In this document: piece by piece, positions 57,192-61,422 of the stretch
How positions within the stretch are numbered: position 1 is the first letter of the stretch
Layout: each line of letters starts with the position of its first letter
Origin: Paenisporosarcina cavernae
Lineage (GTDB): Bacteria > Bacillota > Bacilli > Bacillales_A > Planococcaceae
Length of the DNA: 64,000 bases
Assembly (NCBI RefSeq): GCF_003595195.1
Contig: NZ_CP032418.1
Location: 2,166,001-2,230,000, forward strand
Direction of reading: 5' to 3'
Notes under the pieces: model-generated
The model's input: the letters and a program-made list of their open reading frames with translations, nothing else
Database searches by the model: none
Told to the model about the DNA's origin: nothing
Made by a program: the position numbers and the translations under genes

Positions 57192-57234
57192 ACTTTTTTG
57201 AAAAAAAGTGATCCATTTTCTTCTTCGATACGTT
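57192..57234 (+). promoter_or_regulatory. candidate ECF promoter of the sigma gene
   Basis: ACTTTTTT-AAAAAAA tract, then GTGATCCATTTT and CGTT at 57231. The core TGATCC (57209-57214), 16 bases, CGTT is repeated with the same spacing at 58795, in front of the surface-protein gene. Extensive identity upstream of the -35 supports a shared sigma-dependent promoter. Confidence 0.75.
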
Positions 57235-57313
57235 TACTTTCTATACGGATAATTGTATCTAGTTACTCCCTCCTGTATGATTATTTTTAATAAAGGGACA
57301 CAAGGAGGTTTCT

Positions 57314-57907
57314 ATGGATCGACAAAACGATTATGACGTATATCTGCGATTATTAAAGCGTGATAAAGAAGCGCTTGAAATTCTATATGATCAATACGAA
57401 AGACTTCTCTATTCGTTTGCGTATCGAATGACAGGTGATGCGAAACATGCAGAAGATGTTGTACAAGATGTATTTATGAAGCTGTGGCGTGAGCACGCTC
57501 CATATTCCCCTGAAAAAGGAAAGTTTTCCTCTTGGTTATTAACGATGGTACGTAATACTTCCCTCGATTTTCACCGAAAGAAATCGCGACAAAACGAAGT
57601 CGCTTATATGGAACACGACTCAGAACAAGTGCAAGTGATTGATGCAAAGGAAGAAATTCCGGAACACTTTGTGGAGTGGAGAGAAAAGCAGTCGACCATT
57701 CGTACTGCTATTGCTGAATTAAAAGAAGATCAACAAAAAATAGTGGAACTCTTTTATTTCCAAGGACTTTCCCAAGACGTCATTGCGACGAAATTAGACA
57801 TACCACTCGGAACGGTAAAAAGCCGTATACGATTAGCCTTAGGACATCTCAAGAAGAAACTTCATGGAGAAAGGGGGATCTTGCAAGATGGAACGACAAA
57901 CATGTGA
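57314..57907 (+). CDS. ECF RNA polymerase sigma factor (SigK-like)
   Basis: 197 residues. Region 2 (ALEILYDQYERLLYSFAYRMTGDAKHAEDVVQDVFMKLWRE, about 18-60) and region 4 (IVELFYFQGLSQDVIATKLDIPLGTVKSRIRLALGHLKKKL, about 140-180), without region 3, define an ECF factor. ATG after AAGGAGG. The anti-sigma gene overlaps its 3' end by 20 bases, and the promoter upstream matches the one before the surface-protein gene, so it likely drives its own operon and the sortase operon. Confidence 0.93.
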   Translation: MDRQNDYDVYLRLLKRDKEALEILYDQYERLLYSFAYRMTGDAKHAEDVVQDVFMKLWREHAPYSPEKGKFSSWLLTMVRNTSLDFHRKKSRQNEVAYMEHDSEQVQVIDAKEEIPEHFVEWREKQSTIRTAIAELKEDQQKIVELFYFQGLSQDVIATKLDIPLGTVKSRIRLALGHLKKKLHGERGILQDGTTNM

Positions 57908-58610
57908 AACATTAATTGATTATTTCAATGGACAATTGAATGATATAGAAAAAGCGCAATTTGAAGAACATTTACAGCATTGCCCATCGTGCCAAGAAGA
58001 GCTTGCTGAATGGCAACTTTTAGCGGATGATCTTCCTTATGCGGTTGACACCGTCCTTCCTCCAAATGGAATGAAAGATCGAATTCTCTCAAACATTGTA
58101 GATGATAAAGAAGAAGAAATGGTGGTCGTGAATAACAAACCAATTCCTAAAAAGCCTTCCGTCAAATGGATGCCTTTCATCGCCGCTGCACTCTTATTAT
58201 CTATAGGGGCAAATATCTTTTTAGCTTCTATAGTAAGTAAACAAACGGATGAGCTTGCAACTTCTCAAGAAACGGTAGATGAGTTGTTAGCGTATGTCCA
58301 ACTTTCTTCTACGACTGGAGATGTAACAGGGACCGCATCGATGGTGAAACACGGTGAAGAAGTACAAATGGTTGTGACTGCGAATTCACTTCCACAATTA
58401 TCGAATGAAGAAGTTTTCCAAGTGTGGTTAATCGATGAAGATGGACCAAAGCGAGCTGGTTCTTTCCAAACAACTTCCGAAAACGGCACAATGGTCTTTA
58501 CACTTCCGGAAAACATGAACAAAGATTGGAGCCAAATTGCCGTTTCTCATGAACCGAACAAAGACAGTGAGAAGCCGCTTGGTGAAGTATTGCTTGCTTC
58601 TGATCTTTAA
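57888..58610 (+). CDS. anti-sigma factor, RskA type
   Basis: 240 residues: cytoplasmic zinc-finger anti-sigma domain with HxxxCxxC (EEHLQHCPSCQEEL, H28/C32/C35), one transmembrane helix (about 88-110), and an extracellular RskA-like domain (YVQLSSTTGDVTGTASMVKHGEEVQMVV..VFQVWLIDEDGPKRAGSF..). Holds the sigma factor inactive at the membrane until regulated proteolysis. The ATG at 57888 overlaps the sigma gene; a start at 57864 is possible. Confidence 0.92.
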   Translation: MERQTCETLIDYFNGQLNDIEKAQFEEHLQHCPSCQEELAEWQLLADDLPYAVDTVLPPNGMKDRILSNIVDDKEEEMVVVNNKPIPKKPSVKWMPFIAAALLLSIGANIFLASIVSKQTDELATSQETVDELLAYVQLSSTTGDVTGTASMVKHGEEVQMVVTANSLPQLSNEEVFQVWLIDEDGPKRAGSFQTTSENGTMVFTLPENMNKDWSQIAVSHEPNKDSEKPLGEVLLASDL

Positions 58611-58641
58611 ATAAAAAGTACAAAGTAGTTGCCACCCTATC

Positions 58642-58687
58642 AGACTGTGTGAGTATTCCATATTTGGAGCTTGCACAGTCTTTTTAT
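58642..58687 (+). terminator. intrinsic terminator after the anti-sigma gene
   Basis: AGACTGTG and CACAGTCT with a 24-base loop followed by TTTTATT. It separates sigma/anti-sigma from the surface-protein unit, which has its own promoter. Confidence 0.75.
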
Positions 58688-58775
58688 TAGCCAAAAAAGA
58701 ATTTGCAGTTTTAAAAACTGTCGTAGTGAAACCTTGCTGTGACGAGGATTCTATTTCGTTACACATTGAATGGAC

Positions 58776-58820
58776 AACTTTTTTTAAAAAAATGTGATCC
58801 ATTTTGCAATCCGCTCCGTT
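58776..58820 (+). promoter_or_regulatory. second ECF promoter, before the surface-protein gene
   Basis: ACTTTTTTTAAAAAAA, then TGTGATCCATTTT (TGATCC at 58795-58800), 16 bases, CGTT (58817-58820). Almost the same as the sequence before the sigma gene over 30 bases, although the surroundings differ. Confidence 0.78.
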
Positions 58821-58867
58821 AGCTTGGTGTAATGAAAATTCAAACTAATTTAAAAGGAGCGATTCAC

Positions 58868-60217
58868 ATGAACAAAAAAACGATTTTAATGTCATCTTTA
58901 TCTTTAAGTCTACTAGTGCCAACGATGGTGTTTGCAGAGGATCACAATTCAATGGGATCGGAAACAAATGTTTCTAGTCCAGCTTCCGAATTACGTTCTG
59001 CTTTAGGGCATCTATTTACAGAGCATGCGTTTTTAGCGACTGAAGTGTTGAAAAAAGGAGCAGATGGTGCGGAAGATTTTGATCAAGCTGCAGCGGCCTT
59101 AAGTGCTAATACAGATGATTTAACAGCAGCAATCTCTTCGGTTTATGGAGACGACGCAGGCGCACAATTTAAAGAAATTTGGAATTCACATATTGGATAC
59201 TTTGTCGATTACGTAACTGCTACTGGAGCGAAGGATGAAGCAGCGAAAAAAGAAGCGCTAGCGAACTTGGACAGCTATCGTACCGAACAAGCAGCATTTT
59301 TAGAAACGGCAACAGAAGGTCGTTTGAAAGCAGCAGATTTAGAAGCTGGATTAAAAATGCATGTAGACCAATTGATTTGGGCTTTTGATAGCTATGTTGC
59401 GGGAGATTATGAAACATCTTATATGAACGAGCGAGAAGCTATTGATCATATGAGAATGGTTGCAGCTAGTGTTGCGACAGCTATTACCGATCAATTCCCT
59501 GACAAGTTTGAGAACTCAAAAGCAGTCACTCCAGCAGCTGATTTACGTGCATCACTTGACCGTGTTTTCACAGAACATGCAGGACTTGCAGTAATGGCGA
59601 TGCAAAACGGAGTAGATGGTGATCCTGACTTTGATGCTTCGGCAGCCGCTCTTTTAGCGAACGCAGATGAGTTATCTGCTGCAGTCGCTTCTGTTTATGG
59701 TGAAGAAGGCGGAGAAGCATTTAAAGAAATTTGGAAATCACATATCGGTTATTTCGTCGATTATGTGACAGCAACTGCTAATGATGATCAAGCTGGAAAA
59801 GACGCTGCGAAAAAAGAATTAGATGGTTACATTACCGATCAAGCTGCATTCTTAGCGACAGCAACGGAAGATCGTTTACCTGCTGCTGATTTAGAGGCTG
59901 GCTTAACGGAACATGTGGATCAATTGCTTAATGCATTCGATAGTTATGTAGCTGGAGATTACGAAACTGCATATTCTGCGTTACGCGAGTCATATGCACA
60001 CATGTTAATGCCTTCTGAAGCGTTATCAGGTGCAATTGTCGACCAATTCCCAGATAAATTTGCTGGTAGCTCAATGCCAGAAGGAATGCCGAAAACTGGT
60101 ATGGGTGGAACTGCGAACGAAGATGCATTTCCATATGAATGGTTCTTATTAGGTGGGTTACTTGCTGCTTCGATGGGTGGAGCATATTCCCTACGTCGTC
60201 GTTCTAACGAGGCGTAA
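58868..60217 (+). CDS. secreted two-repeat protein with C-terminal sorting signal
   Basis: 449 residues. Signal peptide (about 1-23, ending VFA), two repeats (about 38-214 and 222-398) aligning at a constant offset of 184 residues without gaps, then MPKTGMGG (407-414), a hydrophobic helix and RRR: a sortase sorting signal. Each repeat is predicted helical and keeps four histidines (H53, H108, H165, H194 match H237, H292, H349, H378) in motifs TEHA, SHIGYFVDYVTAT, HVDQL and HM. A metal- or haem-binding helical bundle is inferred; I know no function. ATG at 58868 after AAAGGAG. Followed by its sortase three bases on. Confidence 0.9.
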   Translation: MNKKTILMSSLSLSLLVPTMVFAEDHNSMGSETNVSSPASELRSALGHLFTEHAFLATEVLKKGADGAEDFDQAAAALSANTDDLTAAISSVYGDDAGAQFKEIWNSHIGYFVDYVTATGAKDEAAKKEALANLDSYRTEQAAFLETATEGRLKAADLEAGLKMHVDQLIWAFDSYVAGDYETSYMNEREAIDHMRMVAASVATAITDQFPDKFENSKAVTPAADLRASLDRVFTEHAGLAVMAMQNGVDGDPDFDASAAALLANADELSAAVASVYGEEGGEAFKEIWKSHIGYFVDYVTATANDDQAGKDAAKKELDGYITDQAAFLATATEDRLPAADLEAGLTEHVDQLLNAFDSYVAGDYETAYSALRESYAHMLMPSEALSGAIVDQFPDKFAGSSMPEGMPKTGMGGTANEDAFPYEWFLLGGLLAASMGGAYSLRRRSNEA

Positions 60218-60220
60218 ATA

Positions 60221-60850
60221 GTGAGGAAGAAACTTGCTTTGATTGGCATCTCTGCTTTATTGTTAGCAGGGTGTCAATCGATGCCTTCCGCTTCGCAAGA
60301 AGAGAACGGGGCAAAGAAAGCACCAATAGAATCAGCAGAAACTGCCCCCATTACACTTGCGATTGGAAATGAAACATTATCTTCGGATAAGATTATTCAA
60401 GACGACAGACAAGGAATCACCCCATCGAACTTAACGATTCCCGCAATAAATGTGGACGCACCCGTCGAAGGCTACGGTGTGAACAAAAAAGGGGAAATGG
60501 ATGTACCAAATAGCGTGATCACAACTGGCTGGTACGACAAAGGGTACATGCCTGGGGCTGCCGGTAATGCTGTAATTGCTGGTCATGTAGATGGCAAAAA
60601 AGGACCCGCAGTATTTTACGATCTGAAAGAGCTACAAAATGGAGATGAAATCATTGTCTCCGACGAGCAAGGAAATGAGAAAATCTTTGTGGTAGATCGT
60701 GTAAAATCGTATCCTGTTGATGAAGCACCGCTCGATGAGATTTTCGGGTTTAAATACGGAAGTAGTTTAAACTTAATCACGTGCACGGGAGATTATTCAA
60801 ACGGTGGGTATGAGGAACGCTTGGTTGTGTATAGTAATTTGAAAGAGTAG
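60221..60850 (+). CDS. class F-like sortase, predicted lipoprotein
   Basis: 209 residues. Lipobox LLAGC with Cys18, linker, then a sortase beta-barrel: LTIPAINVDAPVEGYGV, catalytic His122 in AVIAGHVDG, Cys188 in LNLITCTGD, Arg200 in GGYEERLVVY. Sortases usually have a transmembrane anchor, so lipid anchoring is notable. GTG start directly after the surface-protein gene with GAGGCG overlapping its stop, so the pair is coupled. It probably attaches the MPKTG protein to the wall. Confidence 0.9.
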   Translation: MRKKLALIGISALLLAGCQSMPSASQEENGAKKAPIESAETAPITLAIGNETLSSDKIIQDDRQGITPSNLTIPAINVDAPVEGYGVNKKGEMDVPNSVITTGWYDKGYMPGAAGNAVIAGHVDGKKGPAVFYDLKELQNGDEIIVSDEQGNEKIFVVDRVKSYPVDEAPLDEIFGFKYGSSLNLITCTGDYSNGGYEERLVVYSNLKE

Positions 60851-60867
60851 ATATTTTTGACAAATAA

Positions 60868-60912
60868 AAAAGCGGCGGAGTTACGAGTAGATTCTCGTTA
60901 TTCCGTCGCTTT
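60868..60912. terminator. bidirectional intrinsic terminator
   Basis: AAAAGCGGCGGAGTTACGAG and its near-complement CTCGTTATTCCGTCGCTTTT form a long stem; T runs on both strands. Confidence 0.88.
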
Positions 60913-61422
60913 TCTTTGAGTTTGCAACCAGTTTTTAGTTTCTTTTGGGCTTAGAAACATATAAACAGTTGCATTGCTTTTTGCTAATCGAGACATCATT
61001 TTCGGTCGAATGTCCTTTGGAAACCGCCAAATCCATTGAAAAAATTCTATATCCATTTTTTCTGGGCACTCTTTTCCCATATCCGGACGGGTTTTACCTC
61101 GATACTTCCAAACTCGCTTAAACGCTCGATAGAGACACACGTACTTGGAATAGTCCAAATAGATAATTGTATCGGCGTATTGCAATCGATATTCTAGTGT
61201 AGAGTCAAAATTTCCGTCAATGATCCATTCTGGGTTTTGCAATGTTTTCTCTAGCTGCGCGATAAATTCTTTTTTTGGAAGTGCTACCCAACCAGGTTGC
61301 CAATATATCACATCCAAATGGATAACTGGCACATTCCATTTTACAGATAGTTCTTTTGCTAAAGTCGATTTTCCAGCACCACTCGACCCAACGATTAAGA
61401 TTTTCTTTGGATTATGCTGCAT
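60898..61422 (-). CDS. P-loop kinase-like protein (FlaR / topology-modulation family)
   Basis: 174 residues. Walker A GSSGAGKSTLAKEL near residue 12, then VIHLDVIYWQPGW, WIIDGNFDSTLEYRL and YLDYSKYVCLYRAFKRVWKYRGKTRPDMGKECPEK, the pattern of proteins annotated as DNA-topology-modulation FlaR and related adenylate-kinase-like enzymes. The annotated name is historical; the substrate is unknown. ATG at 61422 overlaps the upstream VOC gene by 11 bases. Confidence 0.87.
   Translation of the reverse strand: MQHNPKKILIVGSSGAGKSTLAKELSVKWNVPVIHLDVIYWQPGWVALPKKEFIAQLEKTLQNPEWIIDGNFDSTLEYRLQYADTIIYLDYSKYVCLYRAFKRVWKYRGKTRPDMGKECPEKMDIEFFQWIWRFPKDIRPKMMSRLAKSNATVYMFLSPKETKNWLQTQRKATE

Follow-up and report, generated by a model that had tools for sequence, protein, structure and literature searches.

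The window analysed in this work is a stretch of 64,000 bases (positions 2166001-2230000) from the genome of Paenisporosarcina cavernae, which is a single contig of 2,537,131 bases. It encodes four consecutive genes on the forward strand (57314-60850 of the window) that we call SIG (an extracytoplasmic function, or ECF, sigma factor), ANTI (an RskA-type anti-sigma factor), SURF (a secreted wall protein with two repeats), and SRT (a sortase). An initial annotation, made from the sequence alone, had described an autoregulated module in which a promoter common to two transcription units turns on a wall protein and the enzyme that attaches it. The row of genes is confirmed by Pfam domains and coordinates, and the MPKTG sorting signal is indeed seen in the C-terminus of SURF.

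SIG (57314-57907) encodes a cysteine-free protein of 197 amino acids that matches the Pfam families Sigma70_r2 and Sigma70_r4_2. ANTI (57888-58610) starts within the end of SIG, and its product has a zinc-finger domain with HxxxCxxC, a hydrophobic stretch recognised by eye, and an RskA_C domain. It matches PF13490 (zf-HC2) with 30.9 bits, PF10099 (RskA_C) with 58.4 bits (cut-off 29.4), and NCBIfam NF052375 with 120.5 bits (cut-off 100). An ECF sigma factor encoded next to a zinc-finger anti-sigma factor is the arrangement of class I (ZAS) anti-sigma factors, the membrane stretch being assigned here by eye. A strong intrinsic terminator follows (58642-58681; hairpin of -23 kcal/mol, z -6.8, with a U run) and separates two units, as had been proposed. 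Beyond it, SURF (58868-60217) encodes 449 amino acids with a signal peptide identified by eye, a pair of repeats, and a sorting signal. The repeats, at residues 38-214 (58979-59509) and 221-399 (59528-60064), are 62% identical, so that the wall protein is duplicated internally. The sorting motif MPKTGMGG (residues 407-414, 60086-60109) precedes a hydrophobic stretch and RRR. SRT (60221-60850) has a GTG start 3 bases past the end of SURF; its product carries a lipobox with Cys18 and the catalytic residues H122, C188, and R200. A second terminator lies 3' of SRT (60868-60913; hairpin of -28.5 kcal/mol, z -7.4).

Both units are preceded by the same promoter block, at precisely the positions given in the initial annotation. 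Before SIG-ANTI (57209-57234), TGATCC (57209-57214) is followed by 16 bases, CGTT (57231-57234), and TAC; before SURF-SRT (58795-58820), TGATCC (58795-58800) is followed by 16 bases, CGTT (58817-58820), and AGCT. Over the surrounding 36 bases (57204-57239 and 58790-58825), the two blocks agree at 26 positions. The exact pattern TGATCC-N16-CGTT occurs 3 times in the window, where 0.10 matches would be expected; the third match (position 386) lies inside a coding frame. Among the 59 open reading frames of the window that were scored, SIG and SURF are the only ones with a perfect site at most 200 bases upstream.

Conservation of the promoter and co-occurrence of SIG and SURF

The site upstream of SURF is conserved among relatives. 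A scan of genome contigs provided a first set of 30 SURF loci, 26 of which have the exact site upstream of the gene (with a spacer of 16 bases, or 17 in L029). The others are two loci with TGATCT (L036 and L038), one without a site (L033), and one where the upstream region is lost at a contig end (L019). A second set, drawn from whole genomes, comprised 30 loci, and 22 were scored after eight single-repeat loci fell under the threshold. In this set, 19 of the 22 SURF promoters are perfect under TGATCC or TGATCT; the exceptions are a promoter with CGTA (L104), a partial gene (L105), and a copy with no site (L115). Part of the second set repeats the first: L090 is the window, and L088, L089, L092, L093, L098, and L115 are L009, L010, L011, L012, L013, and L033, respectively. 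Once the window and these six repeats are removed, 13 of 15 promoters are perfect. As a control, 290 other open reading frames of at least 120 amino acids in the 30 loci gave 0 perfect sites within 200 bases upstream and 9 sites with 9 of the 10 positions.

The site is also found upstream of SIG. We scored 35 of the 39 fetched SIG loci, leaving out four with less than 170 bits (L086, L087, L156, and L157); two of the loci, L080 and L152, are one gene. Under TGATCC or TGATCT, 14 promoters are perfect and 12 score 9/10, which makes 26 of 35 with at least 9/10. Among mononucleotide shuffles of the same upstream stretches, 0-0.5% score 10 and 0-3.5% score 9. The SIG sites are more variable than the SURF sites, with, for example, TGAACT in L069, L074, L076, L078, and L151. 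This comparison across relatives, which the initial annotation had called for, thus supports the conservation of both promoters. The gene set is less tightly kept together than had been anticipated: only 9 of the 30 SURF loci, as fetched, include SIG, and SRT directly follows SURF in 21 of 30. The presence of the site before SURF, before SIG, and before sortase genes in related genera makes the regulatory link look real.

We then compared the distribution of the two genes in 101 genomes (the host and its relatives), using thresholds of at least 185 bits for SIG and at least 404 bits for SURF. SIG was found in 17 genomes, SURF in 17, and both in 16. The exceptions are one genome with SIG and no SURF (G068) and one with SURF and no close SIG (G073), where an ECF gene 2.5 kb from SURF matches SIG with 82 bits and looks unlike it. 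A further test used 17 of the 30 SURF loci; one of their genomes (G114) is a member of the first set (G033), which leaves 16 new ones. SIG is present in all 17 at 246 bits or more, inside the fetched SURF flank in 5 and outside it in 12. Promoter conservation, together with SIG in 16/17 and 16/16 further SURF genomes, supports the idea of an autoregulated module with a shared promoter.

Reach of the site

Longer forms of the motif are more specific. TGATCCA-N15-CGTTAGCT occurs at two sites of the host genome, before SURF and before a gene encoding a DUF4383 membrane protein, and its reversed pattern at none; the SIG promoter itself reads CGTTTACT, unlike this form. In the 101 genomes the extended motif has 15 sites (control 0), and TGATCCA-N15-CGTTAGC has 23 sites in 12 of the 17 SURF genomes (control 1). 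Of these 23, 10 are SURF promoters. Among the 13 non-SURF sites, all of which were read, 11 begin 47-99 bases upstream of a plausible start codon (in L171 and L172 a likely GTG start lies 65 bases on), and those of L167 and L178 fit no gene. The 11 targets are SURF paralogs (4), a gene for a secreted low-complexity protein followed by one for a second secreted protein (3), and genes for DUF4383, DoxX, YtkA, and a sortase. The initial annotation had limited the regulon to one wall protein and its sortase. Both do have the shared promoter, but this description is too narrow, given the sites before DUF4383, SURF paralogs, secreted proteins, CopC, DoxX, and YtkA.

In the host genome, the DUF4383 site (C1:275313) begins 52 bases 5' of the start of the gene (L044, 1553-1894), and a DUF4383 gene with a perfect promoter is also found in Bacillus pinisoli (L175). 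The host gene is followed by a catalase-like open reading frame (PF00199). We considered the catalase as a regulon member and rejected it: a hairpin with a U run lies just past the DUF4383 stop, and the gene that follows DUF4383 in L175 has the opposite orientation. A CopC gene has the site in G027 and, by similarity, a counterpart in G009 (genus g2; L120 and L137, of which only L120 was scanned); it is followed by a membrane protein gene that we take to be CopD. The gene for the secreted low-complexity protein has the promoter in G002, G005, and G044 as well. It was observed with the promoter in six genomes in all (L056, L059, L132, L159, L171, and L172), mostly followed by a second secreted gene, and none of the three such proteins that were scanned has a Pfam family over the cut-off.

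The wall protein and the neighbouring sortase

SURF has no Pfam family over the cut-off, and its domain is without a Pfam or NCBIfam name, also in the six single-repeat relatives that were scanned; NCBIfam names only the C-terminus. This region has the sorting motif, hydrophobic stretch, and positive tail of sortase substrates. It resembles the GVDTG sorting domain (NF058571), with 29.1 bits for a cut-off of 29, but most SURF copies carry MPxTGxGG, and 11 of 23 SURF members match the model at E 0.001. Judged by these comparisons, SURF carries what is apparently a new wall-protein domain. We aligned 12 sequences of the domain, i.e., the two repeats of the window and ten of 12 single-repeat or partial matches (alignment A4). 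Three histidines, an asparagine, and Tyr-Gly are invariant, and a fourth histidine is found in each repeat in 21 of 23 SURF proteins.

A model of one SURF repeat (repeat 1) is a confident six-helix bundle (model confidence, pLDDT, of 95.8). Judged by position in the model, the four histidines map close to the midpoints of helices 1, 3, 5, and 6. This placement would be compatible with a ligand site in the interior of the bundle, and a metal or heme site would be our guess. A sequence search for solved relatives gave a single match with an E of 1.4, and Foldseek returned no match at E <= 0.001 with either the whole SURF model or a single repeat. The best results of VIA-align (Z 9.0 and 9.9) are designed helical proteins, under the level stated for helical bundles, and we neither assign SURF to a fold family nor exclude one.

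Some relatives of SURF occur on plasmids, and two of them are labelled copper amine oxidase in their records. More generally, the plasmid relatives (L039, 5098-7248; L042, 7938-8582) are annotated as 'copper amine oxidase' or 'glycosyltransferase', and Pfam scans support neither name. Pfam gives no support for SURF as a copper amine oxidase either, and a C-terminal extension in L104 that had been taken for a copper amine oxidase domain was not recognised as one by Pfam, so that this identification was dropped. L039 has a plastocyanin/azurin gene in divergent orientation to SURF. Single-repeat relatives on Nocardioides and Methylocystis plasmids adjoin sigma factor genes (L041, 7830-8531; L043, 7908-8600), and folE and NnrS or DUF2249 genes are found nearby. 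A promoter linkage across phyla was considered for these loci and discarded, as no site there scores above 8/10.

Sortases are usually regarded as housekeeping or pilus-linked enzymes. At E 0.001, PF04203 matches no protein of the host genome other than SRT. A match to SRT at E 1e-20 is found in 18 of the 19 genomes tested, and in the sole exception (G088) SURF has no sorting signal. Two Pseudalkalibacillus genomes contain a sortase gene in a SURF-free locus with a perfect promoter of its own (L193 and L194), in addition to one that adjoins a SURF copy (L205 and L206). The closest NCBIfam model is that of class F sortases (NF033748), which is matched by all 15 members of our sortase alignment (A3). 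SRT retains the catalytic His, Cys, and Arg, which are invariant across A3 as H122, C188, and R200. However, it scores 141.4 bits, under the cut-off of 166, and differs from class F by a lipobox N-terminus. The initial annotation had called SRT a lipoprotein sortase. This holds for SRT itself, where the lipobox was seen by eye, but not in general: the cysteine is present in 14 of the 15 members of A3 and in 14 of 30 sortase loci (by eye) in a wider set, and the lipobox is therefore a trait of part of the family only.

A probable envelope switch and its alternatives

From the sequence data, we consider it highly likely that SIG and ANTI form a switch controlling their own operon, SURF-SRT, and further targets in trans, and that SURF is anchored to the wall by SRT. 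ANTI, a membrane protein of the RskA type with a zinc-finger domain, would keep SIG inactive until an envelope signal inactivates it, probably by stepwise proteolysis, as we infer from RskA. The freed SIG would then read TGATCC-N16-CGTT promoters. The site before SIG-ANTI would provide positive feedback, and that before SURF-SRT would turn on both of these genes. SURF would be exported and joined to the wall at MPKTG by SRT, the only sortase found in the genome. The regulon would extend in trans to the DUF4383 membrane protein in the host and, in relatives, to further secreted or membrane proteins.

An alternative concerns the role of SURF, which could be a sensor and not only an output: the histidine-bearing helical domain would bind a metal, heme, or an oxidant and feed back on ANTI from the wall. 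The conserved histidines, three invariant in the 12 diverse domains and the fourth nearly so, and their position near mid-helix in the model fit this idea, as does the promoter shared with CopC, YtkA, and DoxX genes. Against it, sequence and structure searches found no solved relative, and the SURF and SIG genes often lie apart. We regard it as unlikely.

Several observations weigh against a SIG-driven switch as such. The bit thresholds for SIG and SURF were chosen after the gaps were seen, and both the SURF and the SIG loci are related, so that their counts are not independent. One SURF copy (L033/L115) has no site, 9 of 35 SIG loci score only 7 or 8 (the worst being L077, L085, and L139), and 9 of 30 SURF loci are without an adjoining sortase. 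We do not regard the change from C to T in the -35 elements of SIG and SURF promoters as co-evolution, because a T-ending SIG -35 occurs with both TGATCT and TGATCC SURF sites. A looser pattern has 21 sites against 6 in the control, and 10 of the 19 SIG/SURF genomes have no site of that form; its single sites, including both CopC sites, are therefore less sure.

The remaining difficulties could be explained by another ECF sigma factor, or several, with the same specificity, SIG-ANTI being only one of the targets. In G073, SURF keeps a perfect promoter while the best SIG match has 100 bits. When TGATCCAAA-N13-CGTTAGCT was searched in 261 genomes of the order, 15 sites were found (control 0), and 8 of the 14 genomes concerned belong to genus g3, where the site precedes a PepSY gene (L062 and L217-L223; PF03929 is shown for L062). 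G010, the g3 genome that was tested for SIG, lacks SURF at the cut-off, and its SIG relative reaches only 148 bits. The site is therefore not exclusive to the SIG/SURF module, and genus g3 may have a second sigma factor of the same specificity. On the other hand, the near-complete co-occurrence of SIG with SURF in both sets of genomes and the presence of the motif at SIG's own operon in most loci argue for SIG as the reader. Moreover, genomes with SIG relatives of about 145-167 bits (for example, G001, G003, G008, G022, G029, and G038) have no extended site. We thus find it quite unlikely that SIG-ANTI is only a target.

Finally, the two blocks could reflect a recent duplication of the promoter within the locus, or chance similarity, without regulatory meaning. 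The search of the whole genome for TGATCC-N16-CGTT, proposed in the initial annotation, recovered the SIG and SURF sites but showed the pattern to be unspecific: there are 8 sites against 5 for the reversed control. Three of the 8 are promoter-like (SIG, SURF, and C1:275313), and the other 5 lie within coding frames (2 sense, 3 antisense). The bare pattern alone is weak evidence, and the case therefore rests on conservation. Duplication or chance is extremely improbable, given that the site precedes SURF in many genera as well as SIG and sortase genes located elsewhere, but none of the 290 control open reading frames.

If SIG is the regulator, the sole sortase found in the genome appears to be under the control of an ECF sigma factor, together with the substrate encoded next to it. 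The module would offer a regulon that can be tested, with a sharply defined promoter, in bacteria that are not known as pathogens. It would also add a new wall-protein domain, whose ligand would indicate which stress the system responds to. A broader proposal, tentative and rather doubtful in our eyes, is that an ECF sigma factor builds a covalently attached wall layer in Bacillales, composed of SURF, its paralogs, a dedicated sortase, and copper- or redox-linked proteins, as a sink or sensor for a metal, heme, or an oxidant. Such an envelope response of Bacillales was not found in the literature searched, nor was any account of a sigma-sortase module in the open-licence literature of PubMed Central (PMC). 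The filaments of B. cereus are, in the part of the account available, a different system (PMC13082335).

We class the module as an ECF/RskA switch commanding a wall protein and a sortase. Among the closest known systems, the SigK-RskA pair is assigned to ECF18/ECF19, and RpoE-ChrR pairs, whose promoter resembles that of the present module, to ECF11. SIG and SigK are both paired with an RskA-type anti-sigma factor, ANTI having an RskA_C domain well over the cut-off. According to the part of the account available, SigK of Mycobacterium tuberculosis controls eleven genes, including those of the homologous antigens MPT70 and MPT83 (PMC7509140), surface proteins whose place SURF would take here. 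However, Cys133/Cys183 are present in 94% of ECF18 and 56% of ECF19 sigma factors (PMC7509140, in part), and SIG has no cysteine. SIG also scores 113.6 bits with the SigK model PRK09646 (cut-off 226), its surface protein is of another kind, and the available part of the SigK-RskA account mentions no sortase (PMC7509140). The RpoE-ChrR promoter of Pseudomonas and Shewanella, as given in the available parts of two accounts, is TGATCC-N16-CGTA (PMC5507510, PMC4336711). Its -35 element and spacing are identical to those found here, and in both cases the motif precedes the sigma/anti-sigma operon. Unlike in that system, ANTI is not of the ChrR type (TIGR02451, 20.5 bits for a cut-off of 124.5), and the predicted SIG targets are envelope and wall genes, which differ from those listed for RpoE-ChrR in these parts of the accounts (PMC5507510, PMC4336711). 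The -10 element also differs: it is mostly CGTT here, with CGTA in some SIG promoters.

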